The position numbers and the translations under genes were made by a program. From assembly GCF_009674685.1 (NCBI RefSeq), contig NZ_WKJI01000001.1, positions 496,001 through 560,000 on the forward strand: 64,000 bases of DNA, given 5' to 3'. This DNA comes from Pedobacter puniceum. Its GTDB lineage: Bacteria > Bacteroidota > Bacteroidia > Sphingobacteriales > Sphingobacteriaceae. Positions within the stretch are counted from its first letter, which is position 1. Each line of letters begins with the position of its first letter. This document shows, one piece after another, positions 1-13,588 of the stretch. The notes below the pieces were generated by a model. The model was not told the origin of the DNA. It did not search any database and saw only the letters and a program-made list of their open reading frames with translations.

Positions 1-2540
1 CTGCTGAGGCAGATGGAGGCTCGCCTTATAAGAAAGAGAAGAAGGAATATTTTCCGGCTATAAGTTTTAATAATGACCGTTTTGTAAAAATTGTTGGTCT
101 GTTTTTACTCTTGCTAGCTGTGTATTTTGCCGTAGCTTTTAGTTCTTATTTATTTACTTGGGAAGAAGACCAAAGTTATGTAAGTGATGCTAACGGTGGT
201 TGGGCAAATTTATTTAGAACTGTAGAAGAATTAGCTTCTAATGGGGTTTTAAACCCCGATATACAAAATTGGGCTGGTAAATTAGGGGCTTTATTAGCCA
301 ATCAATTTATCTATAAATGGTTTGGTATAGCATCGTTCTTATTCATCTTCATTTTTGTTGTCTTAGGATACAGACTATTATTTAAGGTAGTACTTTTTCC
401 TATATCAAGAGTTTTTGGATATAGCTTCTTTTTATTGGTTTACAGTTCTTTATTTATTGCCTATTTTCATCATTTTATAGCAGAGTATCCTCACTTTTTA
501 GAAGGTGAATTTGGTTTTTATCTCAATCAAATATTGGTTGCGCAAATAGGTTCTGCGGGTGTGGGCGGCTTATTGGCATTTGCAGGTTTAAGTACTTTGG
601 TTATTGCTTATAATATTGATTTTAATTTACCAGAGAAAAAAGTTAAAGCTCATCAAGAACAAGAAATAGAAGAAAAGCAGGAAGAAGAAGGTGATATTTC
701 AAACATCAGAATTGCAAAACCAGAAATTGAAGAAGAATATCCATCAGAGCCGGTGGAGTTTCCTTTAAATACAAAGAGACAACAACAAGAGGTTATCATC
801 CCAACAAAAGCTCCTATAGAAATAGAAGAGTCCGAGGAAGATGTTGTAGTTCAGGAGTTTGAAGCCCCAGTAAATCAACTATTAAAAGAACAGCCGCTAA
901 GAAATACGCCAAATCTGGATTTAGAAACCATCATCCCAACGGTAGAAGATACAGAGGAAGAAGTAGAGCTGATGGTAGAAAAAACGCCAGAGGAAGCTAA
1001 GGCAGAAGAATTGGTAGAACAATTTGGTGCTTTTGACCCTACTTTAGAGCTTTCTTCTTATAAAAACCCAATTTTAGATTTATTAGAGCAATACGGTAGT
1101 AATAAAATTTCTGTTGATGCAGAGGAGTTAGAATCAAATAAGAATAAAATTGTTGAGACCCTTAATAACTATAATATCGAGATAGAAAAAATTAAGGCTA
1201 CTATTGGTCCAACGGTTACTTTATATGAAATAATCCCTGCACCGGGGGTACGTATCTCTAAAATTAAAAACCTAGAGGATGATATTGCATTAAGTTTAGC
1301 AGCTTTAGGTATCAGGATTATTGCACCAATGCCAGGAAAAGGAACTATTGGTATAGAGGTGCCTAACCAGCACCCAGAAATGGTTTCTATGCGTTCTATC
1401 ATCGCTACAGAAAAATTCCAAAATACTACGATGGATTTACCTATTGCCTTGGGTAAAACCATCTCTAACGAAGTTTTTATTGCTGATTTAGCCAAAATGC
1501 CGCATATGCTGGTAGCTGGGGCAACTGGGCAAGGTAAATCTGTAGGTATTAATACCATATTAGTTTCTTTACTTTATAAAAAGCATCCATCACAACTAAA
1601 ACTGGTATTGGTAGACCCTAAAAAGGTGGAGTTAAGCTTGTTCAGAAAAATAGAAAGACATTTCTTAGCTAAACTTCCTGGGGAAGAAGATTCTATTATT
1701 ACCGATACTAAAAAAGTTATCCATACCTTAAATTCTTTGTGTGTAGAGATGGATCAGCGATATGATTTACTGAAAGATGCGGGGGTAAGAAATTTAAAAG
1801 AGTATAACGAGAAATTTATCAAGCGTAAGCTAAACCCAAACAATGGACACCGCTTTTTACCGTTTATTGTTTTGGTGATAGATGAGTTTGCAGATTTAAT
1901 GATGACCGCAGGAAAAGAGGTAGAAACACCAATTGCCAGATTAGCACAATTAGCCAGAGCTATTGGTATACACTTGGTTTTAGCTACACAAAGGCCATCG
2001 GTAAACATCATTACAGGTACTATTAAAGCCAATTTTCCGGCTAGGTTAGCCTTTAGGGTTACCTCTAAAATAGACTCGAGAACCATTTTAGATTCTGGAG
2101 GTGCAGACCAATTGATAGGGAAAGGAGATATGTTATTATCTACCGGTAGCGATTTAATTCGTTTACAATGTGCTTTTGTTGATACGCCAGAGGTAGATAG
2201 GGTAACCGAGTTTATTGGTAACCAAAGAGGATACTCATCGGCTTATTTATTGCCAGAATATGTTGGAGATGATAGCGACCCTGGTAGTGTGAAAGATTTT
2301 GATCCATCAGACCGCGACCCTATGTTTGAAGATGCTGCTCGTTTAATTGTGATGCATCAACAAGGTTCTACGTCTTTAATCCAGCGTAAGCTTAAATTAG
2401 GATATAATAGAGCCGGTAGAATTATAGATCAGCTAGAAGCTGCAGGAGTAGTAGGGCCTTTTGAAGGAAGCAAAGCGAGAGAGGTTTTAATTCCTGATGA
2501 ATATGCTTTGGAACAGTTCTTGGATAATATGAACAAATAA
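1..2540 (+). CDS. ftsK: DNA translocase FtsK/SpoIIIE, 5' end outside the window
   Basis: Membrane-anchored, ATP-driven DNA pump that clears and aligns chromosome termini at the division septum. The frame is open to the left edge (reading from base 3), so the true start is outside; about 845 residues are visible. In order they show four hydrophobic segments (roughly bases 85-640), a long acidic Glu/Pro-rich linker (about 640-1020), the alpha/beta motor and a C-terminal gamma winged helix (about 2310-2530). The motor carries Walker A GATGQGKS near base 1519 and a Walker B-like VIDEFADLM near 1875. LVLVDPKKVELSLF and LATQRPSVNIITG are typical FtsK motor motifs. The LolA-like gene follows after 6 bp, probably cotranscribed. 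An internal TTG at 111 could be mistaken for the start, but the upstream codons read as natural FtsK sequence. Confidence 0.97.
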   Translation, partial: AEADGGSPYKKEKKEYFPAISFNNDRFVKIVGLFLLLLAVYFAVAFSSYLFTWEEDQSYVSDANGGWANLFRTVEELASNGVLNPDIQNWAGKLGALLANQFIYKWFGIASFLFIFIFVVLGYRLLFKVVLFPISRVFGYSFFLLVYSSLFIAYFHHFIAEYPHFLEGEFGFYLNQILVAQIGSAGVGGLLAFAGLSTLVIAYNIDFNLPEKKVKAHQEQEIEEKQEEEGDISNIRIAKPEIEEEYPSEPVEFPLNTKRQQQEVIIPTKAPIEIEESEEDVVVQEFEAPVNQLLKEQPLRNTPNLDLETIIPTVEDTEEEVELMVEKTPEEAKAEELVEQFGAFDPTLELSSYKNPILDLLEQYGSNKISVDAEELESNKNKIVETLNNYNIEIEKIKATIGPTVTLYEIIPAPGVRISKIKNLEDDIALSLAALGIRIIAPMPGKGTIGIEVPNQHPEMVSMRSIIATEKFQNTTMDLPIALGKTISNEVFIADLAKMPHMLVAGATGQGKSVGINTILVSLLYKKHPSQLKLVLVDPKKVELSLFRKIERHFLAKLPGEEDSIITDTKKVIHTLNSLCVEMDQRYDLLKDAGVRNLKEYNEKFIKRKLNPNNGHRFLPFIVLVIDEFADLMMTAGKEVETPIARLAQLARAIGIHLVLATQRPSVNIITGTIKANFPARLAFRVTSKIDSRTILDSGGADQLIGKGDMLLSTGSDLIRLQCAFVDTPEVDRVTEFIGNQRGYSSAYLLPEYVGDDSDPGSVKDFDPSDRDPMFEDAARLIVMHQQGSTSLIQRKLKLGYNRAGRIIDQLEAAGVVGPFEGSKAREVLIPDEYALEQFLDNMNK

Positions 2541-2546
2541 AATTTT

Positions 2547-3200
2547 ATGTTGAAGATGAGGATAAGCCTGTTAATTGCTGTTTTATTATTTGTTTTTAAG
2601 GGTGCTTTTGCCCAGCCAGATGCAAAAGCAAAAGCTATTTTAGCCGATGTAAGTAAGAAATTTAGGAGTTATAATGTGGTGAAAGCAGATTTTACTTATT
2701 CTTATTTAAACAGGCAAAACAATACCCGTGATAACCAAAAGGGAACTTTATACATACAATCTAAAACCAATAAATTTAAAGCTATTTTGCCATCGCAAGA
2801 ACTTATCTCTGATGGTAAAGTACAATGGACCTATCTGAAAGAGGATAAAGAAGTACAGGTTAGTGAGATTGATAATAGTCCTGATGCTCTAAACCCGGCA
2901 CAAATTTTTACCATTTACGAAAAAGGATTTAAATATGTGTATACGGGTGATGTAAAGGCAGGTACTAAAACCTTGCATAATATAGAGCTTGCTCCGCTTA
3001 GCAACAGGTCTTTTTCTAAAATTAAATTACAAATAGATAAGCAAAGCAAACAGTTGTATTCTTTCTCTGTTTTTGATAAGAATGGTAATATATATGCTTA
3101 TACCATCCAAACTTTTGTACCTAATGTAAAAGTATCGCCCAGCTTATTTACATTTGAAGCAGCAAAATATCCAGGCGTTGAAGTAGTTGATTTAAGATAG
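2547..3200 (+). CDS. LolA-like outer-membrane lipoprotein carrier protein
   Basis: Likely periplasmic carrier that shuttles lipoproteins from the inner to the outer membrane. The 217 residues begin with a signal peptide ending at about GAFAQ (residue 23). The mature part has the LolA-family pattern: an N-terminal helix (AKAILADVSKKFRSYNVVKA) followed by beta-strands with FTYSYLNR, GTLYIQSKTNKFKA and GKVQWTYLKEDKEVQVSE, forming a half-barrel. A second Met at 2556 (MRISLL) is an equally plausible start. It sits 6 bp after ftsK, an arrangement common in this phylum. LolA paralogues are frequent, so the general carrier role is inferred from family and not proven. Confidence 0.85.
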   Translation: MLKMRISLLIAVLLFVFKGAFAQPDAKAKAILADVSKKFRSYNVVKADFTYSYLNRQNNTRDNQKGTLYIQSKTNKFKAILPSQELISDGKVQWTYLKEDKEVQVSEIDNSPDALNPAQIFTIYEKGFKYVYTGDVKAGTKTLHNIELAPLSNRSFSKIKLQIDKQSKQLYSFSVFDKNGNIYAYTIQTFVPNVKVSPSLFTFEAAKYPGVEVVDLR

Positions 3201-3204
3201 GTTT

Positions 3205-3480
3205 ATGTCTTTAAGCATCACCCAGCATACATTAGAAAAATTAGAAAATCTTTTAAAAGATTTTGGCTACAAAGTAAGGTACGAGAAGGGTAATTTTAAA
3301 ACCGGATTTTGTATCATAGAAACCAGTAAAATGGTAGTTGTAAATAAGTTCTCTAATTTAGAAAGCAAGATAAATGCTTTAGCAGAATTAATTAAAGGCT
3401 TAGAGTTAGAAGATAGCCATTTAAGTGATAAGCAGAAGCAATTTTATTATTCGTTAAAACAAACCAAACTACAGTTTTGA
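3205..3480 (+). CDS. Small conserved hypothetical protein, 91 aa
   Basis: I do not recognise a characterised family. The 91 residues look like a real soluble alpha/beta protein: an N-terminal helix, strand-like stretches (FKTGFCIIETSKMVVVNKF) and a C-terminal helical half with a final run of Lys and Gln. There is no signal peptide or membrane segment. It starts 4 bp after the LolA-like gene and its TGA overlaps the TTG start of the next gene, so it is tightly embedded in this plus-strand operon. Translational coupling and codon use like that of its neighbours support it being expressed. No function is assigned. Confidence 0.8.
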   Translation: MSLSITQHTLEKLENLLKDFGYKVRYEKGNFKTGFCIIETSKMVVVNKFSNLESKINALAELIKGLELEDSHLSDKQKQFYYSLKQTKLQF

Positions 3481-4238
3481 AAGTCACGTTTTTAGGCACA
3501 GGTACATCACAAGGAGTTCCGGTAATTGCTTGCGATTGCGCAGTTTGTACTTCTTTAAGTGCTTATGATAAACGTTTGCGTAGTAGCATTTTGGTAAGTT
3601 CTGATAAAACTACTTTAGTGATAGACTCTGGTCCGGATTTTAGATATCAAATGTTGCGTAACCAGATTCAGCACTTAGATGCGGTTGTTTTTACACACGA
3701 GCATAAAGACCATATTGCAGGTATGGATGACATTAGAGCTTTTAATTATAAGCAACAGGCTGCTATGGAGATTTATGCAACGGAACAAGTTCAGCATGCA
3801 CTTAAACGCGAGTTTTATTATGTTTTTTCTGATTTTAAGTATCCTGGAATTCCGCTGGTAAACTTAAATACCATTCATGATGAGACTTTTATGGTGGGCG
3901 ATATAGCACTTTTACCTATAGAGGTAATGCATTATAAGCTCCCTGTAAAAGGTTTCAGAATTAAGGATTTTACTTACATTACGGATGCAAAAACAGTTTC
4001 AGAAGAGGAGATAGCTAAGATTAGAGGAAGTAAGATATTGGTGATAAATGCTTTGCAGAAAGAAAGACATATCTCGCATTTTACTTTGGATGAGGCTATT
4101 GCTTTTGCCGAGTTGATTGGAGCTGAGGAAACTTACTTTACACATATCAGTCATAAATTAGGTTTACATGATGATGTAAGTTCATCATTACCTAAAGGTA
4201 TCAAATTGGCTTACGATGGCTTAAGTATTAATATTTAA
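3477..4238 (+). CDS. MBL-fold phosphodiesterase, PhnP-like
   Basis: Metallo-beta-lactamase-fold hydrolase of the PhnP (phosphoribosyl 1,2-cyclic phosphate phosphodiesterase) type. The N-terminus MKVTFLGTGTSQGVPVIAC carries the family GTGTSxGxP signature. Two Cys follow in CDCAVC, a site that binds a structural zinc in PhnP. The metal motif THEHKDH lies near residue 75, and a late FTHISHK supplies further ligands. Length (253 aa) is normal. The start is a TTG at 3477 that overlaps the TGA of the preceding gene, implying translational coupling. No phn genes are nearby, so the physiological substrate is uncertain; such proteins are often only annotated as MBL-fold hydrolases in Bacteroidota. Confidence 0.88.
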   Translation: MKVTFLGTGTSQGVPVIACDCAVCTSLSAYDKRLRSSILVSSDKTTLVIDSGPDFRYQMLRNQIQHLDAVVFTHEHKDHIAGMDDIRAFNYKQQAAMEIYATEQVQHALKREFYYVFSDFKYPGIPLVNLNTIHDETFMVGDIALLPIEVMHYKLPVKGFRIKDFTYITDAKTVSEEEIAKIRGSKILVINALQKERHISHFTLDEAIAFAELIGAEETYFTHISHKLGLHDDVSSSLPKGIKLAYDGLSINI

Positions 4239-4241
4239 AGC

Positions 4242-4273
4242 TTGTCTGATTTTTAAATAAAAAATTATATTTG
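4242..4273 (+). promoter_or_regulatory. Bacteroidota-type promoter for the tRNA-Leu locus
   Basis: TTG at 4242-4244 and TATATTTG at 4266-4273 are separated by 21 bp, matching the Bacteroidota sigma consensus TTG-N19..21-TAnnTTTG. Transcription would begin near 4280, exactly where the degenerate tRNA 5' fragment starts and about 75 bp before the intact tRNA. Confidence 0.6.
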
Positions 4274-4279
4274 CAGCAT

Positions 4280-4345
4280 ATACCCAAGTGGCGAGTCCGG
4301 ATAGCTATCGGCTCCTTAGCTATCGGGCTGGTAGCCGAGTAAAAA
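4280..4345 (+). repeat. Degenerate tRNA-Leu 5' fragment carrying the palindrome
   Basis: The stretch beginning at 4281 copies the first 13 bases of the adjacent tRNA-Leu (ACCCARGTGGCGA, one mismatch). It then runs into a palindrome-derived insert containing GATAGCTATCGG and a second TAGCTATCGG, and afterwards shows CTGGTAGCCG, which resembles the D-loop/stem TTGGTAGACG of the tRNA. It therefore looks like a tRNA 5' part with an insert at the D-loop. It lacks an anticodon arm and cannot be a working tRNA. Confidence 0.6.
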
Positions 4346-4355
4346 GTTATTAAAT

Positions 4356-4438
4356 ACCCAGGTGGCGAAATTGGTAGACGCACCATCTTGAGGGGGTGGC
4401 GCCTTACGGGCGTGGCAGTTCGAATCTGCTCCTGGGTA
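4356..4438 (+). tRNA. tRNA-Leu (anticodon GAG)
   Basis: Class II tRNA of 83 nt, folded by eye. The acceptor stem pairs ACCCAGG with CCTGGGT (7 bp) and is followed by discriminator A at 4438. The D arm has GCG/CGC with loop AAATTGGTAGA. The anticodon stem pairs CCATC with GGTGG around loop TTGAGGG, giving anticodon GAG. A long variable arm (CGCC..GGCG) marks it as class II. The T arm is GGCAG-TTCGAAT-CTGCT with one G-U pair. CCA is not encoded. It reads CUC/CUU leucine codons. It is the only intact tRNA in the window and lies between fragments of itself. Confidence 0.95.
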
Positions 4439-4631
4439 CAATTGGCAGTTCGAGCCGATAGCTATCGGCTCTGCTCCTGGGTACAATTGGCAGTTCGAGC
4501 CGATAGCTATCGGCTCTGCTCCTGGGTACAATTGGCAGTTCGAGCCGATAGCTATCGGCTCTGCTCCTGGGTACAATTGGCAGTTCGAGTCGATAGCTAT
4601 CGGCTCTGCTCCTGGGTACAATTGGCAGTTC
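4439..4631 (+). repeat. Four tandem 45-bp copies of the tRNA-Leu 3' end, each with a 20-bp palindrome
   Basis: Units at 4439-4483, 4484-4528, 4529-4573 and 4574-4618, then a truncated fifth (4619-4631). Each unit repeats the tRNA's T-arm and 3' acceptor strand (GGCAGTTCGA...TCTGCTCCTGGGTA), but the T-loop base after TTCGA is replaced by 16 bp so that GAGCCGATAGCTATCGGCTC forms a perfect 20-bp palindrome. The fourth unit has one substitution (GTCGAT for GCCGAT). Long open frames across the region on both strands are by-products of the 45-bp (15-codon) period and not genes. Confidence 0.9.
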
Positions 4632-4705
4632 AGCTAAATTATTACCGAGCCAGCGGCTTACAATCCATAATTATCATTTCTACTTTTGAAAAAAATATAT
4701 AAAAT

Positions 4706-4993
4706 ATGGCTACTGTATATATTTTACATTCTAAAATCTTAAATCGTTTTTATATAGGTAGTTGTAAAGATTTATCTTTCCGATTAGAACAGCATTTAAA
4801 CAAAGTTTTTGAAAATAGTTTTACGTCTAAAGTTAGGGATTGGACGCTTTTTTATCATATTGAAAATCTTGAATATAAGCAGGCTAGATTGATAGAGCAG
4901 CATATTAAACAGATGAAAAGTTCAGTTTATATAAGAAACTTGAAAAAATATCCTGATCTTAAGCTTAAACTAATAGACAAATACAAATATTAG
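4706..4993 (+). CDS. GIY-YIG nuclease superfamily protein
   Basis: Stand-alone GIY-YIG domain protein of 95 residues. The N-terminus MATVYILHSKILNRFYIGSC carries the VYIL..FYIG form of the family's GIY and YIG signatures, followed by the conserved Arg in LSFRLEQH and a helix with a conserved Glu (ARLIEQHIKQMK). This is the catalytic core seen in UvrC N-termini, homing endonucleases and the small UPF0213-type proteins; the biochemical role of the stand-alone Bacteroidota forms is not established. It starts about 75 bp after the tRNA-derived palindrome array with its own AT-rich leader. The juxtaposition may mean that gene and repeats moved or amplified together, which is inference. Confidence 0.85.
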   Translation: MATVYILHSKILNRFYIGSCKDLSFRLEQHLNKVFENSFTSKVRDWTLFYHIENLEYKQARLIEQHIKQMKSSVYIRNLKKYPDLKLKLIDKYKY

Positions 4994-5092
4994 GCACTTT
5001 TTAGGCTTGGCCCCTATGACTATAGGACCAATAATTATTGAGCCAACAACTATCATGTTTATTCTTGTATAAATATTTTAAGTAAGTTATTT

Positions 5093-5548
5093 ATGACCCA
5101 AACAAAAATCAATCACCCAGACGAGTACATTGCTCAACTACCTTTAGAAAGACAAGAGGTGATGCAGAAATTAAGAACCACCATTCTGGGTAACTTACCA
5201 GAAGGATATACCGAGGAAATGAGCTACGGAATGATAGGTTTTGTTGTGCCACATTCGCTATACCCTAAAGGCTACCATTGCGACCCTAAATTGCCTTTGC
5301 CTTTCATAAGTTTGGCATCTCAAAAGAATTTTATAGCGCTATACCACATGGGTTTATATGCTGATGAAAATCTATTGCAATGGTTTAAAGAAGCTTACCC
5401 TCAACATAGTAAAGCTAAATTAGATATGGGGAAAAGTTGTATCAGATTTAAGAAAATTAATGAAATTCCTTTTGCTTTAATAGCTGAGCTTGTACAAAAA
5501 ATGAGTGTGCAGGATTGGGTTAAAATTTATGAGTCTACCTACAAATAA
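5093..5548 (+). CDS. DUF1801 domain protein
   Basis: Cytoplasmic protein of 151 residues matching the DUF1801 (YdhG-like) family. Family-type features are the opening helix with EYIAQLPLERQEVMQKLR, the central GYTEEMSYGMIGFVVP segment, and SLASQKNFIALYHMGLY followed by KLDMGKSCIRFKK. No signal peptide or membrane segment is visible. The fold is related to a small frataxin/YdhG-like group, but no reaction is established. It stands alone between the GIY-YIG gene and a 386-bp spacer, so context gives no further clue. Confidence 0.82.
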   Translation: MTQTKINHPDEYIAQLPLERQEVMQKLRTTILGNLPEGYTEEMSYGMIGFVVPHSLYPKGYHCDPKLPLPFISLASQKNFIALYHMGLYADENLLQWFKEAYPQHSKAKLDMGKSCIRFKKINEIPFALIAELVQKMSVQDWVKIYESTYK

Positions 5549-5934
5549 AAAGATAGTTTTATGTTATTTATAAAAGAAAATAGCCTTTTGTATAGATAAT
5601 TCAGCTTAATTTTTGCGCAATCGTTATCGTTTCTTTTTTATATGCAAAAATTTATTTTAAAGAATTTTATTTTTCATAAAAGCGCTATTTATTTCTTTAA
5701 TTGTTGTTTTGAGAATGTGTAATTTGTATGTTTCACCATTACACATCTACAATAAGATTACCACGTCTTTCCTAACTCTCTTCAAATGAATATAATTGTA
5801 TTGACCATTTGAAGGCATAAGTACTTTGTAAATCAGGTAATTATATAATAGTAAATATTATCTGTCTACCAAGTACCTCAAAACCTAAGAAATACAATTA
5901 ACCAATTTATAAACAACTATTAATTTAAAATCTA
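5549..5934. other. 386-bp AT-rich spacer before the secreted lyase-like gene
   Basis: No convincing coding sequence. The clearest structure is a perfect 9-bp inverted repeat, ATGTGTAAT at 5715-5723 and ATTACACAT at 5738-5746, with a 14-nt loop. It could be an operator or a small hairpin in the leader of the gene at 5935. Otherwise the stretch is low-complexity A/T. Confidence 0.5.
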
Positions 5935-8085
5935 ATGAAAAAAAATCTACTCTCTTTTGGGTTTATGAAACTCATGCTATTTTGTTTTTTGATAACTTTT
6001 AGTGCTAAATCTTTTGCACAAATAGGAACTGGTTGGGGAACAGCGGTTTCTTTAGATCAACAAGTTCAATTAGAGAATTATTCGAATCCTTCTGGTGATA
6101 ATACAGACTTTACTTGGCCAAGAACAAGTGCTTACATTGATGCTCAAGGTAATCCAGAAACATCAGATAATAGTGATGTTACCAGTAAGTATAATTACAA
6201 TTCATCTACAGGTGTTAGTACTTTTACGCTTAAAAAGTATCCAGGTAATCGATCAGAGTTACGTGTGTTTGATGTTAACAGCAGTACTAGAAATTATACT
6301 AGTGGTACACGTCAGTTTGAAGGTTATATAACAGTTGGAGATAAAATGTTTGATAACGCTATTTTCCAATTATTTGGAGGGGAAGATAATGCGACAATGT
6401 TACAAATAAGATCTAACTCTTATGATATGGATGCAGCTGATTCTAAATTTAGGATTTTTTATGATCCTAATTGTTTCAATGTGGAAGGTAATAGAGATTT
6501 AGAATTTAATGTTGTAAATAGGAAAATTAAGTTGAATGTGATTCATATTCAACAAACCTCATCAACACCTGGAAAAGTTTATATCCTTATAGATGATGAA
6601 TTAAAGTTTTCTTTCTCAGAGGAAATAACTACAGCAAATTACTTCAAATATGGTATTTATGGTAGGGAGAATGATCCTGAAACCAATGGAATTACAAATG
6701 CTGCTGTAGTTTGGGAGGATGTAAGAATTTGGAAAGGGGGAACATTTGATCCTAATGCTAGTTCTACACCGCCTGCAGCTCCTTCAAATTTAACAGCAAC
6801 AGCTGTTTCTTCAAGTCAAATCAATCTAAGCTGGACAGATAACTCTAATAATGAAACTAAGTTTTATGTGCAGCAATCAAATGACGGCGGTACAACTTGG
6901 TTTGGTATTGGTAATCCAGCAGCTAATGCTACTTCTTTATCAGTTACCGCCTTAAATGCTAATACATCTTATTCTTTCAGAGTAAGGTCAGAAATTGATG
7001 CGAGTAGGAAATCTGCTTATAGCAATACGGCTACAGCCACTACTACTGGAGCTGTACCAAATGCGCCTTCAAACTTAACAGCAACTGCAGCTTCTGCAAG
7101 TTCAATAACTTTAAGTTGGCAAGATAACTCGTCTAACGAAACTAAGTTTTATGTACAGCGTTCTAGCGATAATGGCGCAACATGGGTTGGGTTAGGTAAT
7201 CCAGCAGCTAATGCTACTTCATTTACCGCAACAGGTCTAAGTGCGAATACTCCATATTGGTTTAGAGTGAGGTCTGAGATAGATGCCAATTCTAAATCGC
7301 CTTATAGTAATACCGCAACAGCTACAACACAAATAGCATATTACCGTTTCAGATTAAAAGCTAATACTAATTTAGCTCTACAAAGTAATGATGCTACTAT
7401 CACCACTAGTGAAAATGTTAACGTGGGAACTTATTCTTCTAGTAGTCAAACACAACAATTCCAAATTGTACCTACAGATAATGGTTTTGTAAGAATTATC
7501 CCTCGTTTAGAGAGTAGTTTCGCTCTTTCTTCTTTAGATGGTGCTGCAAATGATGGTGATAATGCAGAGTTAGATCCTTACGCTTCTTACAATCGTCAGC
7601 AATGGAAATTGGTTCCTATTGCAGGTAGTGATGCTCATAAAGTAGAATTACGATTAGCATCTGCGTACGCACTAGATTGTGCTGATGTTACACCTGTAAA
7701 CGGCTCAAATGTTCAAATCTGGATTTACAACACTGCTAATACAAATTTACGCCAACAATGGGTGATAGAGCCTGCTAATGGTGGTGCTGCAATCATGGCA
7801 GCTAAAGAAAGTAGTAGGTTAAATTTATTGCAGGTAGAAGAAAGTCAAGCACAGCACTTAAGTCTTGCATTAAAGAATCAGGAGGTTGTTTTCTCTATTC
7901 CGCAAGATGGTTTTACTACAGTTAAAGTTTATAATATCAACGGTCAGTTATTAAATAGTCTGGTAGGTAAGTCTTTAACAAAAGGTGAGCACAAGATAAA
8001 TTTCGACTCATCAAAATTAAAAGGTTTATATCTTATCAGATTGACTTCTGGTAATCACGTTAAAACAATTAAGGTATTGTTTTAA
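5935..8085 (+). CDS. Secreted lyase-like protein with two FN3, ricin-type lectin and T9SS sorting domain
   Basis: Predicted exported, surface-attached or released carbohydrate-active protein of 716 residues. Order: signal peptide (about 1-29, ending SFAQ); a catalytic-looking jelly-roll domain (about 30-275); two similar FN3 domains (about 278-372 and 374-466); a ricin-like beta-trefoil (about 470-622, with QQWKLVP and QQWVIEP QxW motifs); and a C-terminal type IX sorting domain (about 640-716, with VKVYNINGQLL and GLYLIRL). In the first domain NRSELR and YFKYGIYGR resemble the RSELR and YFKxGxY motifs of PL7-type alginate lyases. The usual QIH motif appears as QLFGG, so family membership and substrate are uncertain. 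It is monocistronic with a strong hairpin after it; no SusC/D pair is nearby. Confidence 0.8.
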   Translation: MKKNLLSFGFMKLMLFCFLITFSAKSFAQIGTGWGTAVSLDQQVQLENYSNPSGDNTDFTWPRTSAYIDAQGNPETSDNSDVTSKYNYNSSTGVSTFTLKKYPGNRSELRVFDVNSSTRNYTSGTRQFEGYITVGDKMFDNAIFQLFGGEDNATMLQIRSNSYDMDAADSKFRIFYDPNCFNVEGNRDLEFNVVNRKIKLNVIHIQQTSSTPGKVYILIDDELKFSFSEEITTANYFKYGIYGRENDPETNGITNAAVVWEDVRIWKGGTFDPNASSTPPAAPSNLTATAVSSSQINLSWTDNSNNETKFYVQQSNDGGTTWFGIGNPAANATSLSVTALNANTSYSFRVRSEIDASRKSAYSNTATATTTGAVPNAPSNLTATAASASSITLSWQDNSSNETKFYVQRSSDNGATWVGLGNPAANATSFTATGLSANTPYWFRVRSEIDANSKSPYSNTATATTQIAYYRFRLKANTNLALQSNDATITTSENVNVGTYSSSSQTQQFQIVPTDNGFVRIIPRLESSFALSSLDGAANDGDNAELDPYASYNRQQWKLVPIAGSDAHKVELRLASAYALDCADVTPVNGSNVQIWIYNTANTNLRQQWVIEPANGGAAIMAAKESSRLNLLQVEESQAQHLSLALKNQEVVFSIPQDGFTTVKVYNINGQLLNSLVGKSLTKGEHKINFDSSKLKGLYLIRLTSGNHVKTIKVLF

Positions 8086-8103
8086 TAGCATAAACTTCAT
8101 TTT

Positions 8104-8140
8104 ATAAGCCAGTATTATGAATAATACTGGCTTATTTTTT
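8104..8140. terminator. Bidirectional terminator between convergent genes
   Basis: A perfect 15-bp stem (8104-8118 with 8121-8135) and a 2-nt loop, followed by a T-run on the plus strand. It sits between the stop of the secreted protein (8085) and the stop of the convergent AraC-family gene (8145), so it can serve both. Confidence 0.85.
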
Positions 8141-8144
8141 TATA

Positions 8145-9119
8145 TCAATTAAAAATCTTATTATACTTATTCCTATACGCGATAGGCGTTAAGCCAGTTA
8201 TTTTTTTGAAGATGGTTCTAAAGGCTTTAGTATCGGTATAACCAATATCATACATCACTTCATGAATATTTTTACGGCTCGATTCAAAACTGCGTTTAGC
8301 ATACTCCATTTTTACCCTATTGATATAGGCAAGTACCGAGTTATTGGTAGCCATTTTAAACCTCCTCTCGAAACTTCTTCTACCTAATTTTACCAAATCT
8401 GCAAGTTCATCAATGGTTATTTTTTCTTGGATATGGAGGTCTATAAAATCTTGTGCTTGTTTAATAGCTTCATCCTGATGGTTTTTTTGTCCTTGAAACA
8501 TGGCAAAAGCAGCCTGACTTTCCCTGTCAATATCAACGGCGAAATATTTTGAAGCTAAAATAGCGGTTGGTCTATCCGTATATTTTTCTACCAAGTGTAA
8601 TAGTAAGTTCCAATAAGAATTAGCGCCACCGCTAGAGTATATGCCATTTTCTTCGGTAATGATACTACCATCAACCACTTCAACATCAGGAAACATCATC
8701 CTAAATTCATTTTGAAAACCCCAATGAGTAGAACATTTTTTACCAGCCAATAAGCCAGTAGAAGCCAGTAAAAAAGCCCCCACACATAGCGAAGCTACTT
8801 CTGCACCTTCTTGATATTGTTGTTTTATCCAAGGTAAAAGTTCTTCATTTTTAGCAATTGCGGTTTTCATATCTCCAAATAAAGCGGGTATCACCACCAA
8901 ATCTGTTTTTGCTACATCTTCTAAAAGTTTTGATGTATTTACAGAAAATAAGCCACCATTAAGTTTTACTTCCTTTTTTAAACCTACCAGCTGAACTTCA
9001 AATAAAGGGCTTTTGCCCGCAGCCATCATAAACTGGTTCACGGCCGAAAATAAATATTGAGGGTCTGCTATGGCTTGTAAAACAGAGCTTTCTGGTACTA
9101 AGATGCTAACACGTTTCAT
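8145..9119 (-). CDS. GlxA-family transcriptional regulator (DJ-1/PfpI + AraC HTH)
   Basis: Transcription factor of 324 residues with two parts. Residues about 1-185 form a DJ-1/PfpI class I amidotransferase-like sensor domain, with the cysteine elbow ASLCVGAFLLASTGLLAGK and the later STHWG. Residues about 215-320 are an AraC double helix-turn-helix (ITIDELADLVKLGRRSFERR, then NIHEVMYDIGYTDTKAFRTI). GlxA-like proteins bind DNA and generally lack hydrolase activity. The gene is divergent from the SRPBCC/VOC array starting at 9269 with a 149-bp shared intergenic region, so that array is its most likely target. The effector is not predictable from sequence. Confidence 0.9.
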   Translation of the reverse strand: MKRVSILVPESSVLQAIADPQYLFSAVNQFMMAAGKSPLFEVQLVGLKKEVKLNGGLFSVNTSKLLEDVAKTDLVVIPALFGDMKTAIAKNEELLPWIKQQYQEGAEVASLCVGAFLLASTGLLAGKKCSTHWGFQNEFRMMFPDVEVVDGSIITEENGIYSSGGANSYWNLLLHLVEKYTDRPTAILASKYFAVDIDRESQAAFAMFQGQKNHQDEAIKQAQDFIDLHIQEKITIDELADLVKLGRRSFERRFKMATNNSVLAYINRVKMEYAKRSFESSRKNIHEVMYDIGYTDTKAFRTIFKKITGLTPIAYRNKYNKIFN

Positions 9120-9268
9120 ATTAGAGGATTAAATGCTTTTTCTAAGATAAAATTATTTGTCGTAAATAGCCCTTTATTTGACATTTATACAGGTTTCCTT
9201 TTTTAAAGGAAGTACCCATATTTGTATCGTAACAACATCAAAATATAAACCTATTAAAGCTTAAGAAA

Positions 9269-9682
9269 ATGGAAAAAGCAAAAATTACAGTTCAAGCAAA
9301 TGTTAACGCCCCACTAGAAAAAGTATGGGATTATTATACCCAACCTAAGCATATCGTTAATTGGAATTTTGCCGATACTAGCTGGCATTGCCCCGCTGCA
9401 GAGAATGATATGCAGGTAGGAGGTACCTACAAAGCCCGTATGGAAGCCAAAGATGGCAGTAATGGTTTTGATTTTGAGGCTGTTTATACAGAAATTGTAG
9501 AAAAAGAGAGCTTTACTTATACCTTTTGGGATAGAACAGCTACTGTTACTTTTCAGAATTTAGGCGCTCAAACCTTAGTTACTGTAATTTTTGACCCTGA
9601 AGATGAAAACCCTATTGATATGCAACAAGCGGGTTGGCAAATGATTCTAAACAATTTTAAATCTTATACAGAAGCTTCTTAA
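9269..9682 (+). CDS. SRPBCC (AHSA1-like) domain protein, copy 1
   Basis: Small START/Bet v1-like hydrophobic-pocket protein of 137 residues, AHSA1-like subgroup. Family hallmarks are the N-terminal VQANVNAPLEKVWDYYTQPKHIVNWNF, the central GGTYKARMEAKDG and the C-terminal helix AGWQMILNNFKSYTEA. Such proteins bind small hydrophobic ligands or act as cochaperone-like modules; no ligand can be named. It is the first gene of the array divergent from the GlxA-like regulator and is followed after 11 bp by a VOC gene. Two more SRPBCC genes lie downstream (10121, 13083) with only modest similarity, so they are old paralogues and not fresh duplicates. Confidence 0.88.
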   Translation: MEKAKITVQANVNAPLEKVWDYYTQPKHIVNWNFADTSWHCPAAENDMQVGGTYKARMEAKDGSNGFDFEAVYTEIVEKESFTYTFWDRTATVTFQNLGAQTLVTVIFDPEDENPIDMQQAGWQMILNNFKSYTEAS

Positions 9683-9693
9683 ACCTTAAAAAT

Positions 9694-10128
9694 ATGAATA
9701 ACCTCATTTACCCTTGCTTATGGTTTAACCATGAAGCCAAAGCAGCAGCAACTTTTTACAGTGCTATATTCCCCAACTTTAAAATTTTAGATGAAAATGA
9801 ATTAGTTGTGGTTTGGGAGCTAAATGGTACAAGATTTATGGGCTTAAATGGTGGTCCGCAATTTAAGTTTAGCGAGGCAGTTTCTTTTGTTATAGAGTGT
9901 GCTACACAAGAAGAAATAGACCATTACTGGGATAAGCTTACTGCCGATGGTGGCTCAGAAAGTATGTGTGGATGGTGTAAAGATAAATATGGCGTTTCTT
10001 GGCAGGTAGTACCTCAAGTATTAGGAACATTAATGTCTGACCCTAATAAAAGAGATAGAGTAGTGGCCGCATTTATGCAAATGAAAAAATTCGATATACA
10101 AACCTTAATTCAGGCAGCAAATGGTTAG
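9694..10128 (+). CDS. VOC-superfamily (PhnB-like) protein, copy 1
   Basis: Vicinal-oxygen-chelate fold protein of 144 residues, PhnB/'3-demethylubiquinone methyltransferase-like' group. Seen: IYPCLWFNHEAKAAATFYSA at the start, NGTRFMGLNGGPQFKFSEAVSFVIECATQEEID in the middle, GWCKDKYGVSWQVVP at the second metal-side motif, and the C-terminal AFMQMKKFDIQTLIQA typical of the group. The methyltransferase name is a historic mis-annotation; activity is unknown. Its last 8 bases overlap the next SRPBCC gene (ATGGTTAG), indicating coupled translation. Confidence 0.88.
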   Translation: MNNLIYPCLWFNHEAKAAATFYSAIFPNFKILDENELVVVWELNGTRFMGLNGGPQFKFSEAVSFVIECATQEEIDHYWDKLTADGGSESMCGWCKDKYGVSWQVVPQVLGTLMSDPNKRDRVVAAFMQMKKFDIQTLIQAANG

Positions 10129-10555
10129 CAATAAGTTTGAAATAGAAATTAATGCCTCAGCAGCACAAGTTTGGCAGGCATTAACCAATACCACTGTGTT
10201 AGACAAGTGGATGAAAAATGTTAAAGTAGAAACAGCTTGGAAAGCTGGTGCTGCCATTACCTATACCTGTTACGACGAAAACGGAGATGTATTTGTCTGG
10301 AATGGGCAAAAAATGGTTTGGGATGGTATCATCAAAGTATTTGAAGAAAATAAAGAATTTACCTGTTCTTATCCTGATAAAAGTACAGGACTGGTAGAAG
10401 AAAGCTATATTTTAGAAACCTTATCAGCTCATAAAACTAAATTGCTTCAATTACAAGTTTTTGAGCAGCAAGAAGTGGCTGATGCTTACCAAGAGGGCAC
10501 TTTAGAAATGCTTAACTTACTAAAAGCTTATGTAGAAGCTCATCATCATGTTTAA
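10121..10555 (+). CDS. SRPBCC (AHSA1-like) domain protein, copy 2
   Basis: SRPBCC protein of 144 residues: FEIEINASAAQVWQALTNTTVLDKWM at the start, a central GAAITYTCYDENG, FEENKEFTCSYPDKSTGLVEE, and a C-terminal helix EGTLEMLNLLKAYVEA ending in three His. It overlaps both neighbours by 8 bp (with the VOC genes at 9694 and 10548). The three genes are therefore one translationally coupled set, implying linked dosage. Ligand or partner unknown. Confidence 0.87.
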   Translation: MVSNKFEIEINASAAQVWQALTNTTVLDKWMKNVKVETAWKAGAAITYTCYDENGDVFVWNGQKMVWDGIIKVFEENKEFTCSYPDKSTGLVEESYILETLSAHKTKLLQLQVFEQQEVADAYQEGTLEMLNLLKAYVEAHHHV

Positions 10556-10967
10556 AATTTCTGCTTATTTAAGTTTTAGAGGTAATTGCCGCGAGGCCAT
10601 GTTGTTTTATCAGCATTGTTTGGGGGGCAGGCTCAGCTTTCAAACCGTAGGAGAATCTCCTATGGCAGCACAGCTACCTCAAAACATTAAGGATTTTATT
10701 TTACATGCCATGCTCATTACCGATAATTTTGCGCTCATGGCTAGTGATATCAGTCCAGAAAGCGGACTTTTAAATGGTAATGCGCTTTCGCTGATGCTGG
10801 ATTGCCATCAGGAAGAAGCTATATATACCGCATTTTACCAATTATCAAAAGGAGGCATCATTAAACAAGCCCTTCAAGAAACCCACTGGGGTGCATTATT
10901 TGGCGAACTAACCGATAAATATGGCCATCATTGGATTTTAAACTTTAATAAGAACCAACAACTATAA
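10548..10967 (+). CDS. VOC-superfamily (PhnB-like) protein, copy 2
   Basis: Glyoxalase/PhnB-like VOC protein of 139 residues with SAYLSFRGNCREAMLFYQHCLGG, DFILHAMLITDNFALMASDI and the final FGELTDKYGHHWILNF, the standard two-repeat VOC layout. Start and stop are fixed by an 8-bp overlap with the upstream SRPBCC gene and a 5-bp gap to the DoxX gene, so it belongs to the same transcript. It is closer in type to the gene at 13589 than to that at 9694. No substrate is assigned. Confidence 0.87.
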   Translation: MFKISAYLSFRGNCREAMLFYQHCLGGRLSFQTVGESPMAAQLPQNIKDFILHAMLITDNFALMASDISPESGLLNGNALSLMLDCHQEEAIYTAFYQLSKGGIIKQALQETHWGALFGELTDKYGHHWILNFNKNQQL

Positions 10968-10972
10968 ACATC

Positions 10973-11347
10973 ATGAAAAAAGAAAAAATTATTTATTGGG
11001 TAGCCACCAGCATCATCGCCTTATTTGAAGGTGTTATGCCTGCACTTACCTCACAAACAGAACTTGCTAGAGAAGGTATCAGGCATTTAGGTTATCCAGC
11101 CTATTTTGGAAATGCTTTAGTAGTCTTTAAGATAGTAGGCGTTTTAATCCTTATCATCCCTCAAATCCCTAAAAGAATAAAAGAATGGGCCTATGCCGGT
11201 TTTACTTTCAACTTTATTTTTGCGGCCATTAGCCACGGTTTTGTTGATGGTATCAACTTTCAAACCTTCTTCCCATTTATCATTTTAGGTATTTTAATGC
11301 TTTCTTATGTTTATTACCATAAGCTGCAAACAAGACAGGAATTTTAG
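10973..11347 (+). CDS. DoxX-family membrane protein
   Basis: Integral inner-membrane protein of 124 residues with four hydrophobic segments, matching the DoxX/DoxX-like group. Typical points are EGVMPALTSQTELAREGIRHLGYPAYF and KIVGVLILIIPQIPKRIKEWAYAGFTFNF. DoxX-like proteins are quinol-oxidase-subunit relatives often found in oxidative-stress or small-molecule-handling operons; the exact role is unsettled. It follows the second VOC gene by 5 bp and ends before a 51-bp gap to arr. Confidence 0.88.
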   Translation: MKKEKIIYWVATSIIALFEGVMPALTSQTELAREGIRHLGYPAYFGNALVVFKIVGVLILIIPQIPKRIKEWAYAGFTFNFIFAAISHGFVDGINFQTFFPFIILGILMLSYVYYHKLQTRQEF

Positions 11348-11398
11348 GGATATTAGCCATATCTTTGACATGTAGACTATTAAAAACATCAACCTAAA

Positions 11399-11848
11399 AT
11401 GCAACAAACACCTCAGCAACTTTTATTAAATGGTGCAGCCAAACCTTTTGCACAAACTTATTTTCACGGTACCAAAGCAAACCTTCAACTAGGTGAATAT
11501 ATAGCCGTTGGTTTTAATTCTAATTATGGACAGCAAAAAAATGCACAATACATTTTTCTATCTGCAACTTTAGATGCTGCAATTTGGGGTGCAGAACTAG
11601 CTTTGGGAGAAGGCAGAGAAAGAATTTATTTGGTAGAGCCTACCGGCGAACTAGAAAATGATCCGGATTTAACAGATAAAAAGTTTCCCGGAAACCCTAC
11701 GCAGTCTTATCGTTCTAAACAACCATTTAGAGTAGTAGGAGAGGTAACGTTATGGCAAAGACATCCCGATGAGCAAATTGAAGCTATGAAAGCAGCTTTG
11801 GCCAAGCTTAAAGCCGAGGGAGTCAATTCTTTAAATGATGCTGAATAA
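11399..11848 (+). CDS. arr: NAD(+)-rifampin ADP-ribosyltransferase Arr
   Basis: Cytoplasmic enzyme of 149 residues that transfers ADP-ribose from NAD to the ansa-bridge hydroxyl of rifamycins and inactivates them. The family signature is well preserved: AQTYFHGTKANLQLGEYIA with the NAD-site His, AQYIFLSATLDAAIWGAELA, RIYLVEPTGELENDPDLTD, and KKFPGNPTQSYRS. Length is normal for Arr. It stands within the SRPBCC/VOC accessory array in its own short transcription interval. Chromosomal Arr genes are widespread in environmental bacteria, so this may be intrinsic and not recently acquired; no mobile element is seen beside it. Confidence 0.93.
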   Translation: MQQTPQQLLLNGAAKPFAQTYFHGTKANLQLGEYIAVGFNSNYGQQKNAQYIFLSATLDAAIWGAELALGEGRERIYLVEPTGELENDPDLTDKKFPGNPTQSYRSKQPFRVVGEVTLWQRHPDEQIEAMKAALAKLKAEGVNSLNDAE

Positions 11849-11893
11849 TCATCCTAAATAAGTTTTAATATTTAAATTGTAACCTCATTTAAG

Positions 11894-12292
11894 ATGCAAA
11901 ATATGTTTACAGTAGAACAGATTCAAACAGCACATGCTAAGGTAAAATCTGGAGCTGATTTTCCGGCTTACATTAAAGAAATCAAAGCATTAGGCGTTAC
12001 ACATTATGAAGCTTATGTAGCAGATGGGCATATAGACTACCATGGCAGAAATGATTATACTGTAAAAGTGCCGGCCAAATATGAAGCAATGCTTATCAAC
12101 CATGATTTAAAAGAGGAAGGGTTTAAAGCTCAACTGTTGGCGCATCAACAAGGAAAAACAGATTATCTTACCTTTATACGCATGTGTGCTGATACAGGTA
12201 TTGAACATTGGAAAATCAATATCAGTAACATGACTTGTAGCTATTATAATCTAGCAGGAGAAGAAGTATTAACAGAACATATACCACAATAA
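11894..12292 (+). CDS. DUF1398 family protein
   Basis: Protein of 132 residues of the DUF1398 (E. coli YbcV-like) family: FTVEQIQTAHAKVKSGADFP, IKALGVTHYEAYVADGHIDY and the characteristic DTGIEHWKINISNMTCSYYN near the C-terminus. The fold is small alpha/beta and no catalytic function is established. It lies 45 bp after arr and 9 bp before the methionine aminopeptidase gene, consistent with shared transcription. No signal peptide or membrane segment. Confidence 0.87.
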   Translation: MQNMFTVEQIQTAHAKVKSGADFPAYIKEIKALGVTHYEAYVADGHIDYHGRNDYTVKVPAKYEAMLINHDLKEEGFKAQLLAHQQGKTDYLTFIRMCADTGIEHWKINISNMTCSYYNLAGEEVLTEHIPQ

Positions 12293-12301
12293 TAAACATC
12301 A

Positions 12302-13066
12302 ATGTCAATCACCAACGAAACAGAGCTATTAGGCATGAAAAAGGTTAGTGAAGCTGTTGCCTTCACTTTAAAGGAAATGTGTAAATATGCTCAACCCGGC
12401 ATGACTACCAAAGAACTAGACGACTTTGGAGGGAAAATACTGGCCGACTTTGGGGCCTTTTCTGCACCTTTTAAAACCTATCAGTTCCCAGGGTATACTT
12501 GCATCAGCGTTAACCAAGAATTTTGTCATGGTATCCCTTCTGAACAAAGAAAACTAAAAGAGGGTGATTTAATTAATATTGATGTTTCTGCAGAACTCAA
12601 TGGCTTTTGGTCTGATAATGGGAACTCCTTTGTTTTAGGAGAAGATATTTATCAGCATCAAACCCTTATCAATGCCTCTAAACAGATATTGCATAAAGCT
12701 ATACACAACATCAAGGGCGGTGTTCGTATTTCAGATATAGGGTATTTGATAGAAACAGAAGCCAAGAAAAGAGGTTATCAAGTCATTAAAAATTTAACAG
12801 GCCATGGTGTAGGACGAAGCCTTCATGAAGAACCAAGCGAGATTGCCAATTACAGAGACCGTTTCAACCTTACAAGATTTAGAAAAAATACTGTTGTGGC
12901 TATAGAGACTTTTATTGCAACAAAGTCAACCTATGCAGAAACGCTTTCAGACGGTTGGACTATGGTTGGTAATAAAGGAGGATTTATGGCTCAACATGAG
13001 CATACCATTGTCGTAACTGATGGAAAGCCTATCATACTCACAGAAATGAACGAGATTTGGAATTAA
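12302..13066 (+). CDS. map: Type I methionine aminopeptidase
   Basis: Removes the initiator methionine from nascent proteins. The 254-residue pita-bread fold keeps the metal ligands D94, D105, H168, E202 and E233 and the substrate-side His residues H76 (FCHGIPS) and H175 (GRSLHEEP). The usual YxGDxxRTF strand is GFWSDNGNSF here, which is divergent but keeps the Asp. The essential map of Bacteroidota normally lies with ribosomal-protein genes, so this is probably a second copy. Its place in an array of detoxification-type genes, 9 bp after DUF1398, is unusual and may point to a backup or specialised role. Confidence 0.9.
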   Translation: MSITNETELLGMKKVSEAVAFTLKEMCKYAQPGMTTKELDDFGGKILADFGAFSAPFKTYQFPGYTCISVNQEFCHGIPSEQRKLKEGDLINIDVSAELNGFWSDNGNSFVLGEDIYQHQTLINASKQILHKAIHNIKGGVRISDIGYLIETEAKKRGYQVIKNLTGHGVGRSLHEEPSEIANYRDRFNLTRFRKNTVVAIETFIATKSTYAETLSDGWTMVGNKGGFMAQHEHTIVVTDGKPIILTEMNEIWN

Positions 13067-13082
13067 AACTCATAGTAAAAAA

Positions 13083-13544
13083 ATGGCAGCAGAAATTTTC
13101 TATACCACACCAGCCCAAGAGATTGTAAGCACCAGAGTTTTTAATACCACACAGCAAAACCTTTTTCAAGCTTGGGCCAATCCTAAGTACCTTAAAAACT
13201 GGTGGGGTCCTAAAGGTTTTACCAACACTTTTAATGAGTTTGATTTTCGAGAGGGAGGTAAATGGAGTTTTATCATGCATGGTCCAGATAAGGGAAATTA
13301 TGCTAACGAGTGCGAGTTCATCAAAATCATAGAACCCTCTTTAATAGCATGGAAAAGACATTCTAAACCGCTCTTTCAGGTAGTAGCTAGCTTTGAAGAA
13401 ATAAGCCATCAGCAAACTAAACTCGTATTTAAAATGATTTTTGATACAGCCGAGGAATGTGAAAAATTAAAACCTTTTGTGGTAGATAAGAACGAGGAAA
13501 ACTTTGATAAGCTAGAAGCGGTCCTGTTAAGTATGAAGGTTTAG
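13083..13544 (+). CDS. SRPBCC (AHSA1-like) domain protein, copy 3
   Basis: SRPBCC protein of 153 residues: TRVFNTTQQNLFQAWANPKY, then the WWGPKGFTNTFNEFDFREGGKW segment that marks the classical AHSA1/YndB group, and a C-terminal GCN-like helix region with EENFDKLEAVLLSM. Compared with the copies at 9269 and 10121 it is the most canonical. It starts 16 bp after map and is followed by a VOC gene (13589), repeating the SRPBCC-then-VOC order seen twice upstream. Confidence 0.9.
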   Translation: MAAEIFYTTPAQEIVSTRVFNTTQQNLFQAWANPKYLKNWWGPKGFTNTFNEFDFREGGKWSFIMHGPDKGNYANECEFIKIIEPSLIAWKRHSKPLFQVVASFEEISHQQTKLVFKMIFDTAEECEKLKPFVVDKNEENFDKLEAVLLSMKV

Positions 13545-13588
13545 GTAAAGAGCCGAAATCTGGAAAATCACTAACTAAAAATAAAATC

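Follow-up and report, generated by a model that had tools for sequence, protein, structure and literature searches.

What would place four copies of the 3' end of a tRNA gene, each carrying a perfect palindrome, directly behind the intact gene that they copy? This arrangement is found in Pedobacter puniceum (Bacteroidota, Sphingobacteriaceae), in a 64,000-nucleotide stretch of contig NZ_WKJI01000001.1 (positions 496,001 to 560,000) that we refer to as the window. An earlier, sequence-only reading had considered a stack of old integrase attachment sites, a tandem amplification or a decoy for tRNA-processing enzymes. Having compared the locus with those of many other genomes, we favor the possibility that the repeats are something more specific; they look like the worn remains of a tiny, one-gene and apparently selfish element, and the array is probably the amplified end of a free-standing, homing-endonuclease-like GIY-YIG nuclease element that targets tRNA genes.

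Structure of the tRNA-Leu(GAG) locus

The intact tRNA-Leu(GAG) gene lies on the forward strand at 4356-4439 (ARAGORN; Rfam RF00005, 44.7 bits over 4356-4438). It is followed on the same strand by four tandem 45-bp units (4440-4484, 4485-4529, 4530-4574 and 4575-4619), each consisting of the T-arm and acceptor 3' strand of the tRNA-Leu. In each unit the single A that follows TTCGA in the T-loop has been swapped for a 16-bp insert, giving the 20-bp palindrome GAGCCGATAGCTATCGGCTC (4452-4471, 4497-4516, 4542-4561 and 4587-4606). Units 2 and 3 are identical to unit 1, and unit 4 differs from it by one base (GAGTCG...). A partial fifth unit of 12 bp (AATTGGCAGTTC, 4620-4631, forward strand) forms the junction with the nuclease part of the locus and is also present in a relative, G013 (as AATTAGCAGTTC). 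The sequence-only reading had described this array correctly: ARAGORN, Rfam and the sequence all bear out a tRNA-Leu followed by four T-arm/acceptor copies over 4440-4619, and the replacement of the T-loop base by a palindrome-making insert holds for all four units.

What that reading overlooked are a 5' tRNA copy and a nuclease gene, which together with the array make up one element. The 5' partial copy of the tRNA-Leu (4282-4334, forward strand) is composed of tRNA positions 1-13 (4282-4294), a 34-bp double palindromic insert (4295-4328) that substitutes D-loop positions 14-16, and TGGTAG (positions 17-22). Allowing one mismatch, the core sequence CCGATAGCTATCGG occurs five times in the window as opposed to never in 100 shuffles, and the fifth of these cores sits upstream of the tRNA-Leu, within the 5' copy. 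Immediately ahead, at 4266-4273 on the forward strand, is TATATTTG, a probable Bacteroidota -7 promoter box; in an alignment of the window locus the same sequence stands directly ahead of the tRNA in G013 and in a second relative, G011. Given that the box precedes the 5' pseudo-copy, the intact tRNA-Leu is probably transcribed through that copy.

The nuclease gene (4706-4993, forward strand, 95 aa; Pfam PF01541, 4e-8) is an intact ORF that begins 75 bp past the array, and it is the only gene seen in the element. Beyond it, the alignment with G013 delineates a decayed right end with degenerate palindromes (5010-5054, forward strand); at the matching place G013 retains ...TCGAACCGATAGCTATCGGATCTGCTTCTGG, in which a T-loop palindrome is accompanied by a portion of the tRNA 3' end. 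Some miRNA-like Rfam matches were obtained on the array, but these fell far under the gathering scores and were dismissed as chance. As a separate observation, a rifampin ADP-ribosyltransferase gene (Arr-ms, PF12120, 1.4e-47) is located at window positions 11399-11848, about 6.4 kb from the element.

Comparison of the locus between species (rather than strains) revealed filled and empty forms of one and the same site: the window's own genome (G000) and G013 carry the element, whereas in G011 the locus is empty. In G013 the nuclease ORF has acquired frameshifts and stops and the right end has a T-loop palindrome, and there is neither an array nor a 5' copy, both of which are present in G000; the 5' copy is absent from G011 as well. 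Since the element occurs in both G000 and G013, the insertion is common to the two, and the array and 5' copy were either gained in G000 or lost in G013. The sequence-only reading had suggested searching relatives for the 45-bp unit. The array was not found in the 99 other genomes searched, two of which gave short pieces of 24-34 bp.

The nuclease and its relatives

In a 25-row alignment residues Y5, Y16, G18, R26, H30 and E64 are invariant, and the window nuclease possesses the conserved Tyr, Arg and Glu as well as the GIY-YIG fold. The PF01541 match covers residues 2-73 of the 95, leaving little outside the catalytic domain, for which AlphaFold2 predicts a confident GIY-YIG structure (mean pLDDT 93). 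Foldseek matched the model to the GIY-YIG domains of UPF0213, I-TevI, Slx1 and UvrC, with weak E-values (0.014-0.66) and probabilities of 0.69-1.00, and in a profile search the nearest solved structures were UPF0213 1zg2 (4e-8) and 1ywl. Such bare GIY-YIG proteins are similar to the window nuclease in size and fold, and we know of no association between them and either tRNAs or palindromes. NCBIfam returned for the ORF only a sub-cutoff match to a group I intron endonuclease, and Pfam returned GIY-YIG only. Rfam detected no group I or other intron over 3500-5600 at E up to 1; the ORF stands alone between genes.

Relatives of the protein are widespread. The window protein as query detected them in 141 of 301 family genomes (E 1e-3), and a profile of 25 relatives matched in 155 of 247 sampled phylum genomes (E 1e-8). 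The best 80 of 366 encoding stretches in named genomes, hereafter the named loci, include Pedobacter, Mucilaginibacter, Flavobacterium, Cytophaga, Chryseolinea, Aequorivita and many MAGs. With the window protein there was no tblastn match in 50,697 phage records (E 1e-5) and no plasmid match at E 1e-5. In its own genome the single protein matched itself alone; the profile recovered two further GIY-YIG genes there, one beside a tRNA-Ser (L253) and a third gene with no tRNA beside it (L252). Values of dN/dS were 0.06-0.16 in five distinct close pairs and 0.44 in a sixth (13 pairs in all, comprising 7 finite values, two of which are the same comparison, 1 identical pair and 5 saturated pairs). 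By this measure the nuclease ORFs are mostly under purifying selection.

Association with tRNA genes

A tRNA on the same strand within 300 bp was found for 25 of the 29 family best matches, 26 of the 29 phylum best matches, 35 of 40 further phylum loci, 61 of the 80 named loci (58 by a simpler count) and 12 of 14 tandem loci, the last having been chosen for being tandem; these sets overlap, as 11 of the named loci are on the same contigs as family loci, and where a locus had several ORFs the one nearest a tRNA was counted. The chance expectation is about 0.4%, based on 42 tRNAs in the 3.9 Mb of the window's own genome, where 42 is a lower bound (150 of 397 candidates were scored, giving at least 42 tRNAs, and the window's tRNA-Leu is itself not on the list). 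The remaining 19 named loci are without a tRNA within 300 bp, and some of these are at contig ends. Of 19 weaker or other matches collected later from six palindrome-rich genomes, 7 had a same-strand tRNA, indicating that the tRNA habit is a trait of some small GIY-YIG genes and is not general.

We also asked which tRNAs are targeted. The 145 rows of a protein tree are distributed over Leu (59), Asn (22), Val (17), Met (13), Asp (9), Ala (7), Gly (5), Ser (4), Pro (4), Arg (2), Thr (1), Phe (1) and Lys (1). Leu (all five isoacceptors) and Asn account for nearly all of the named loci; this make-up is biased, because a profile of Leu/Asn type and a single peptide pattern were used to find them. 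On the tree, which has few columns and many weak forks, tRNA identity changes 26 times against a shuffled mean of 80.7, and none of 200 shuffles was as low. Furthermore, the nearest relative in another family sits at the same isotype in 41 of 96 cases as opposed to 8.2 expected, although over half differ. As judged from these protein comparisons, nuclease subfamily tracks tRNA identity. The tree comprises 145 of 193 loci; those dropped had no tRNA within 700 bp, identical proteins, an X in the protein, fewer than 65 aa or an unassigned tRNA label, and L086, which ARAGORN calls Tyr, was manually relabelled Val.

Element architecture and loop palindromes

Comparison of the loci establishes a layout that recurs in many Bacteroidota, in which a full unit consists of a tRNA part that keeps one tRNA whole, often a short terminator-like hairpin, a GIY-YIG ORF of about 80-95 codons and a palindrome-marked partial tRNA copy. 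Our counts refer to 153 of the 193 loci, after removal of 12 duplicate contigs or identical loci and of those with no tRNA within 700 bp. The intact tRNA is ahead of the ORF in 131 of them, the commonest form having a 5'-truncated second tRNA copy after the ORF. In the other 22 the intact tRNA comes after the ORF; examples of this form have a 3'-truncated copy ahead of the ORF (L061, L062, L070, L071 and L074) and a duplicated promoter region.

The second tRNA copy is interrupted by 8-40 bp in 95 of the 153 loci. In 90 loci the interrupting sequence contains a palindrome of 13 nt or longer (shuffled mean 9.6, maximum 13 in 20 rounds), and 80 loci have one of 16 nt or longer (shuffled 4.0, maximum 8); in the other 63 no palindrome-interrupted second copy was detected by the method used. 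The sequence-only reading would have counted a lack of palindrome-bearing tRNA fragments in related genomes towards an artefact; these 90 loci demonstrate that many have them. Interruptions fall in the T-loop (53 loci), D-loop (24), anticodon loop (19) or elsewhere (7), where one locus may count repeatedly and assignment depends on the position ranges that we chose. At the junction, it is most often three tRNA bases that are missing (47 of 144 fragment pairs). A frequent form of the palindrome is TCCCGA...TCGGGA with element-specific centres, namely CCCGATAGCTATCGGG at Leu and Asn, TCCCGATTTTACATCGGGA at Val, TCCGCCAGCTGGCGGA at Met and TCCCGAATGCTTTCGGGA at Ala. In G204 the palindrome of the Met element differs from that of the Val element, and thus, to judge from this one genome, the palindrome seems tied to the element and not to the host. 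Around the ORFs of the 80 named loci perfect palindromes occur at 1.44 per kb versus 0.09 per kb more than 1.5 kb away, an approximately 15-fold difference.

Tandem repeats occur among these loci, both of whole units and of ORF-less tRNA copies. Among the matches listed, whole units are repeated at tRNA-Val (358 bp, 7.0 copies; 350 bp, 3.2 copies) and at tRNA-Met (363 bp, 6.3 copies; 358 bp, 3.2 copies), with 97-100% matches, and Rfam detected tRNAs only (19 matches) on the 14 tandem loci. The array of the window has a sibling in L099 (G035:C29), where four tandem 112-bp copies of tRNA-Ala with palindromes in the D- and anticodon loops and no ORF inside are located about 20-450 bp ahead of an intact tRNA-Ala. 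The window's own genome has a second element of the same design at a tRNA-Ser(GCT) (L253, approximately 1370-1838; G000:C4:292520 region), laid out as a 5' tRNA-Ser(GCT) copy with hairpin inserts in its D- and anticodon loops, a GIY-YIG ORF and the intact tRNA-Ser.

Palindromes away from tRNA genes

The palindrome is also dispersed. Exact copies of TCCCGATAGCTATCGGGA are present in 42 of 201 family genomes, compared to none for the reversed control. It was found in 12 of the 15 genomes with a strong match to the window-type nuclease (E 1e-13 or better) versus 30 of the 186 others (p 5e-7), and at four or more copies in 10 of the 15 versus 8 of the 186; these counts include element-internal copies and ignore kinship. 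With the window's genus left out the figures are 6 of 10 versus 7 of 173, again ignoring kinship. In the window's own genome there are 7 core copies at 5 other loci, all intergenic and none with a tRNA within 1.5 kb. At three places in this genome (L002, L014 and L016) TCCCGATAGCTATCGGGA lies in intergenic simple repeats such as GTTAGTTGG, and at two of them it is doubled within 31-39 bp.

A related pattern is seen at GIY-YIG loci without a tRNA within 300 bp, 9 of 12 of which sit between inverted repeat copies: L252 (G000:C5:148718), L261, L264, L266, L267, L268, L270, L271 and L272, but not L255, L258 or L263. The bracketing copies, repeats such as TGTCATTGCGAGG, CTGAGCGGAGTCGAAG and GTCATGCCGAACTTGTTTCGGCA, are 13-31 bp exact as opposed to shuffled maxima of 10-13. 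G221 has 43 TGTCATTGCGAGG sites (control 0). Four +/- pairs have a spacing of 59-77 bp and another two bracket GIY-YIG genes, and this pattern is a possible GIY-YIG counterpart of RAYT/REPIN. In G000 there are 20 CTGAGCGGAGTCGAAG sites, 8 of them around the gene of L252.

Discussion

A plausible scenario for the tRNA-targeting element is as follows. The nuclease would cut its cognate tRNA gene within a loop-coding segment, and recombinational repair from a copy of the element would insert a unit that brings along the missing portion of the tRNA. One functional tRNA would therefore remain and the displaced piece would persist as a palindrome-marked pseudo-copy. As the palindrome destroys the loop sequence, the displaced copy is probably protected from renewed cutting; in addition, the palindrome may serve the nuclease as a site of recognition or recombination. 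Tandem arrays could then arise through further rounds of cutting or through unequal exchange between tRNA ends of identical sequence. In the window, we suggest that the right end decayed and that ORF-less 45-bp ends were amplified to four between the tRNA and the nuclease gene. The tandem amplification proposed in the sequence-only reading would accordingly have been right in spirit, with the amplified units being ends of a mobile element at a tRNA gene.

Several observations count against this scenario. The pseudo-copies have replaced loops, while an intact and presumably cleavable tRNA stays next to the nuclease gene, leaving self-protection unexplained. Palindromes are present in several loops of one tRNA copy at L155, and in all three loops at L110, which is more than one insertion junction needs. 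The palindrome is dispersed away from tRNAs, and G151 has 13 copies with no GIY-YIG match at 1e-8. One close pair of nucleases has the dN/dS of 0.44 noted above. Finally, the 63 loci with no detected palindrome-interrupted second copy, the 19 named loci lacking a tRNA within 300 bp and the later set with 7 of 19 also weigh against it, as does L252.

An alternative is that the palindrome is itself the mobile unit, REP-like and mobilised by the GIY-YIG protein in the way that RAYT transposases mobilise REPs, with tRNA hairpin loops as preferred landing sites and tRNA fragments carried along. The excess of TCCCGATAGCTATCGGGA in genomes with a window-type nuclease and the fully occupied loops of L110 speak for this idea, and the inverted repeats around 9 of 12 tRNA-less GIY-YIG loci keep it alive. 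However, nuclease subfamily follows tRNA identity and, together with the differing Met and Val palindromes of G204, this makes the tRNA more than a chance landing site; moreover, G161 (47 palindromes) and G151 (13) have only distant GIY-YIG matches or none. On balance we consider this alternative somewhat less likely than not. A broader proposal, which we find quite possible but hold tentatively, is that the bare GIY-YIG domains of Bacteroidota form a new minimal class of mobile element, 'nuclease plus palindrome', whose enzyme would write or spread a palindrome. One branch would be specialised, subfamily by subfamily, for tRNA genes, replacing loops and keeping one tRNA whole, and a sister branch would drive REPIN-like inverted repeats of the TGTCATTGCGAGG and CTGAGCGGAGTCGAAG types.

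The other explanations fare less well. tRNA 3' ends are classic att sites, and the repeats could be scars or a stack of att sites left by a tyrosine-integrase element such as a phage or genomic island. In G002, a member of the window's genus, a tyrosine integrase (PF00589) does start about 95 bp after the same tRNA-Leu(GAG) (L035, 1679-2875), and the tRNA is thus probably also an att site elsewhere. Nevertheless, when the 23 listed ORFs of at least 80 aa in window 1-14000 were compared with Pfam, 17 matched a family and neither an integrase nor a transposase was among the 23; the element has a GIY-YIG nuclease instead, and att repeats do not explain loop palindromes or copies truncated at either end. 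We therefore rejected the att-site stack raised in the sequence-only reading and regard it as highly unlikely. A host function, in which the repeats would be retained to tune the processing of tRNA-Leu, acting in the RNA as decoys, leaders or terminators, might be argued from the 5' copy lying between the probable promoter and the tRNA and from the RNA fold of the array region, which is far better than that of shuffles (z -7.7; minimum-energy fold without a cloverleaf). Low fold energy is, however, expected of any tandem palindrome, so that the fold is uninformative, and the array occurs in none of the 99 other relatives searched and is missing from G013, where the element is present; we think this explanation, and with it the decoy raised in the sequence-only reading, improbable. 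As for an assembly artefact, some tandem loci of other genomes (L090 and L098) run into contig ends, so such repeats do trouble assemblers, but the array as a whole spans 180 bp within a contig of 1.56 Mb, unit 4 carries its own base change and tandem units are also found elsewhere, on long contigs (L088 and L089), and we give an artefact almost no credence.

The tRNA-targeting element that we favor shares individual traits with several known systems. Like REP/RAYT and REPIN systems it combines one small nuclease gene with dispersed extragenic palindromes. RAYTs are Y1 (IS200-like) transposases; here a Y1 transposase was not found, the enzyme is of the GIY-YIG type and palindromes are also in tRNA loops. 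Phages and islands that integrate at tRNAs carry a replacement tRNA end and use an integrase, and mitochondrial homing endonuclease genes replace the 3' end of a gene, as in Allomyces atp6. In both cases an essential gene is entered and its missing part is restored from the element, as proposed here, but they involve an integrase or protein-gene targets and, to our knowledge, no palindromes in tRNA loops. The E. coli tyrT repeats, tandem 178-bp units that contain the tRNA 3' end, with tpr/rtT, resemble the window array in placing tandem tRNA 3' ends behind a tRNA gene. They differ from it in unit length (178 versus 45 bp), and we know of no GIY-YIG gene or loop palindromes associated with them.

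The closest known system is SegB, which is larger than the bare 80-95-aa domain of our element and, unlike it, resides in phage genomes. T-even phages encode SegB, a homing endonuclease of the free-standing GIY-YIG type, in their tRNA region; it has been implicated in cutting tRNA-containing sequence, and its homologs are often near phage tRNAs (PMC13096335, PMC2988022). In phage T6 it is required for tandem amplification of a 718-bp tRNA-Tyr/segB unit (PMC13096335). The T6 case demonstrates that such an enzyme is capable of promoting the kind of tandem amplification proposed above. The two systems are alike, as far as the passages on SegB go, in having a free-standing GIY-YIG gene beside tRNA genes and in tandem amplification; those same passages describe no palindromes (PMC13096335) and no tRNA-restoring design or isotype-specific subfamilies, in which the element differs. 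In the text available to us, a phylogenomic study of GIY-YIG proteins (PMC1564403) has tRNA at 3 places (1 in the text, 2 in references), none on such an element, and no mention of Bacteroid-, Cytophaga, YhbQ, COG2827 or palindrom-. The sequence-only reading had known of no described element with this architecture, and we likewise met no bacterial element of such design among the matches listed from open-licence papers, which points only weakly to its being new. Phages are known to carry free-standing GIY-YIG homing genes near tRNAs, and the bacterial, tRNA-restoring, palindrome-marked and isotype-specific form was not met in the literature searched.

If our reading is true, a small mobile element that is very common in Bacteroidota has been overlooked so far. 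With its single gene of some 90 codons it would exploit tRNA genes, which are among the best-conserved targets that a genome has, without destroying them. It would account for the many small GIY-YIG genes beside tRNAs and for the tRNA-like pseudogenes in this phylum, and it would make the role of the palindrome testable at once. The isotype-specific subfamilies would provide a natural set of minimal nucleases for studying target-site recognition by a bare GIY-YIG domain, and the element as a whole would be a bacterial counterpart to the SegB-driven amplification of tRNA genes in phages.
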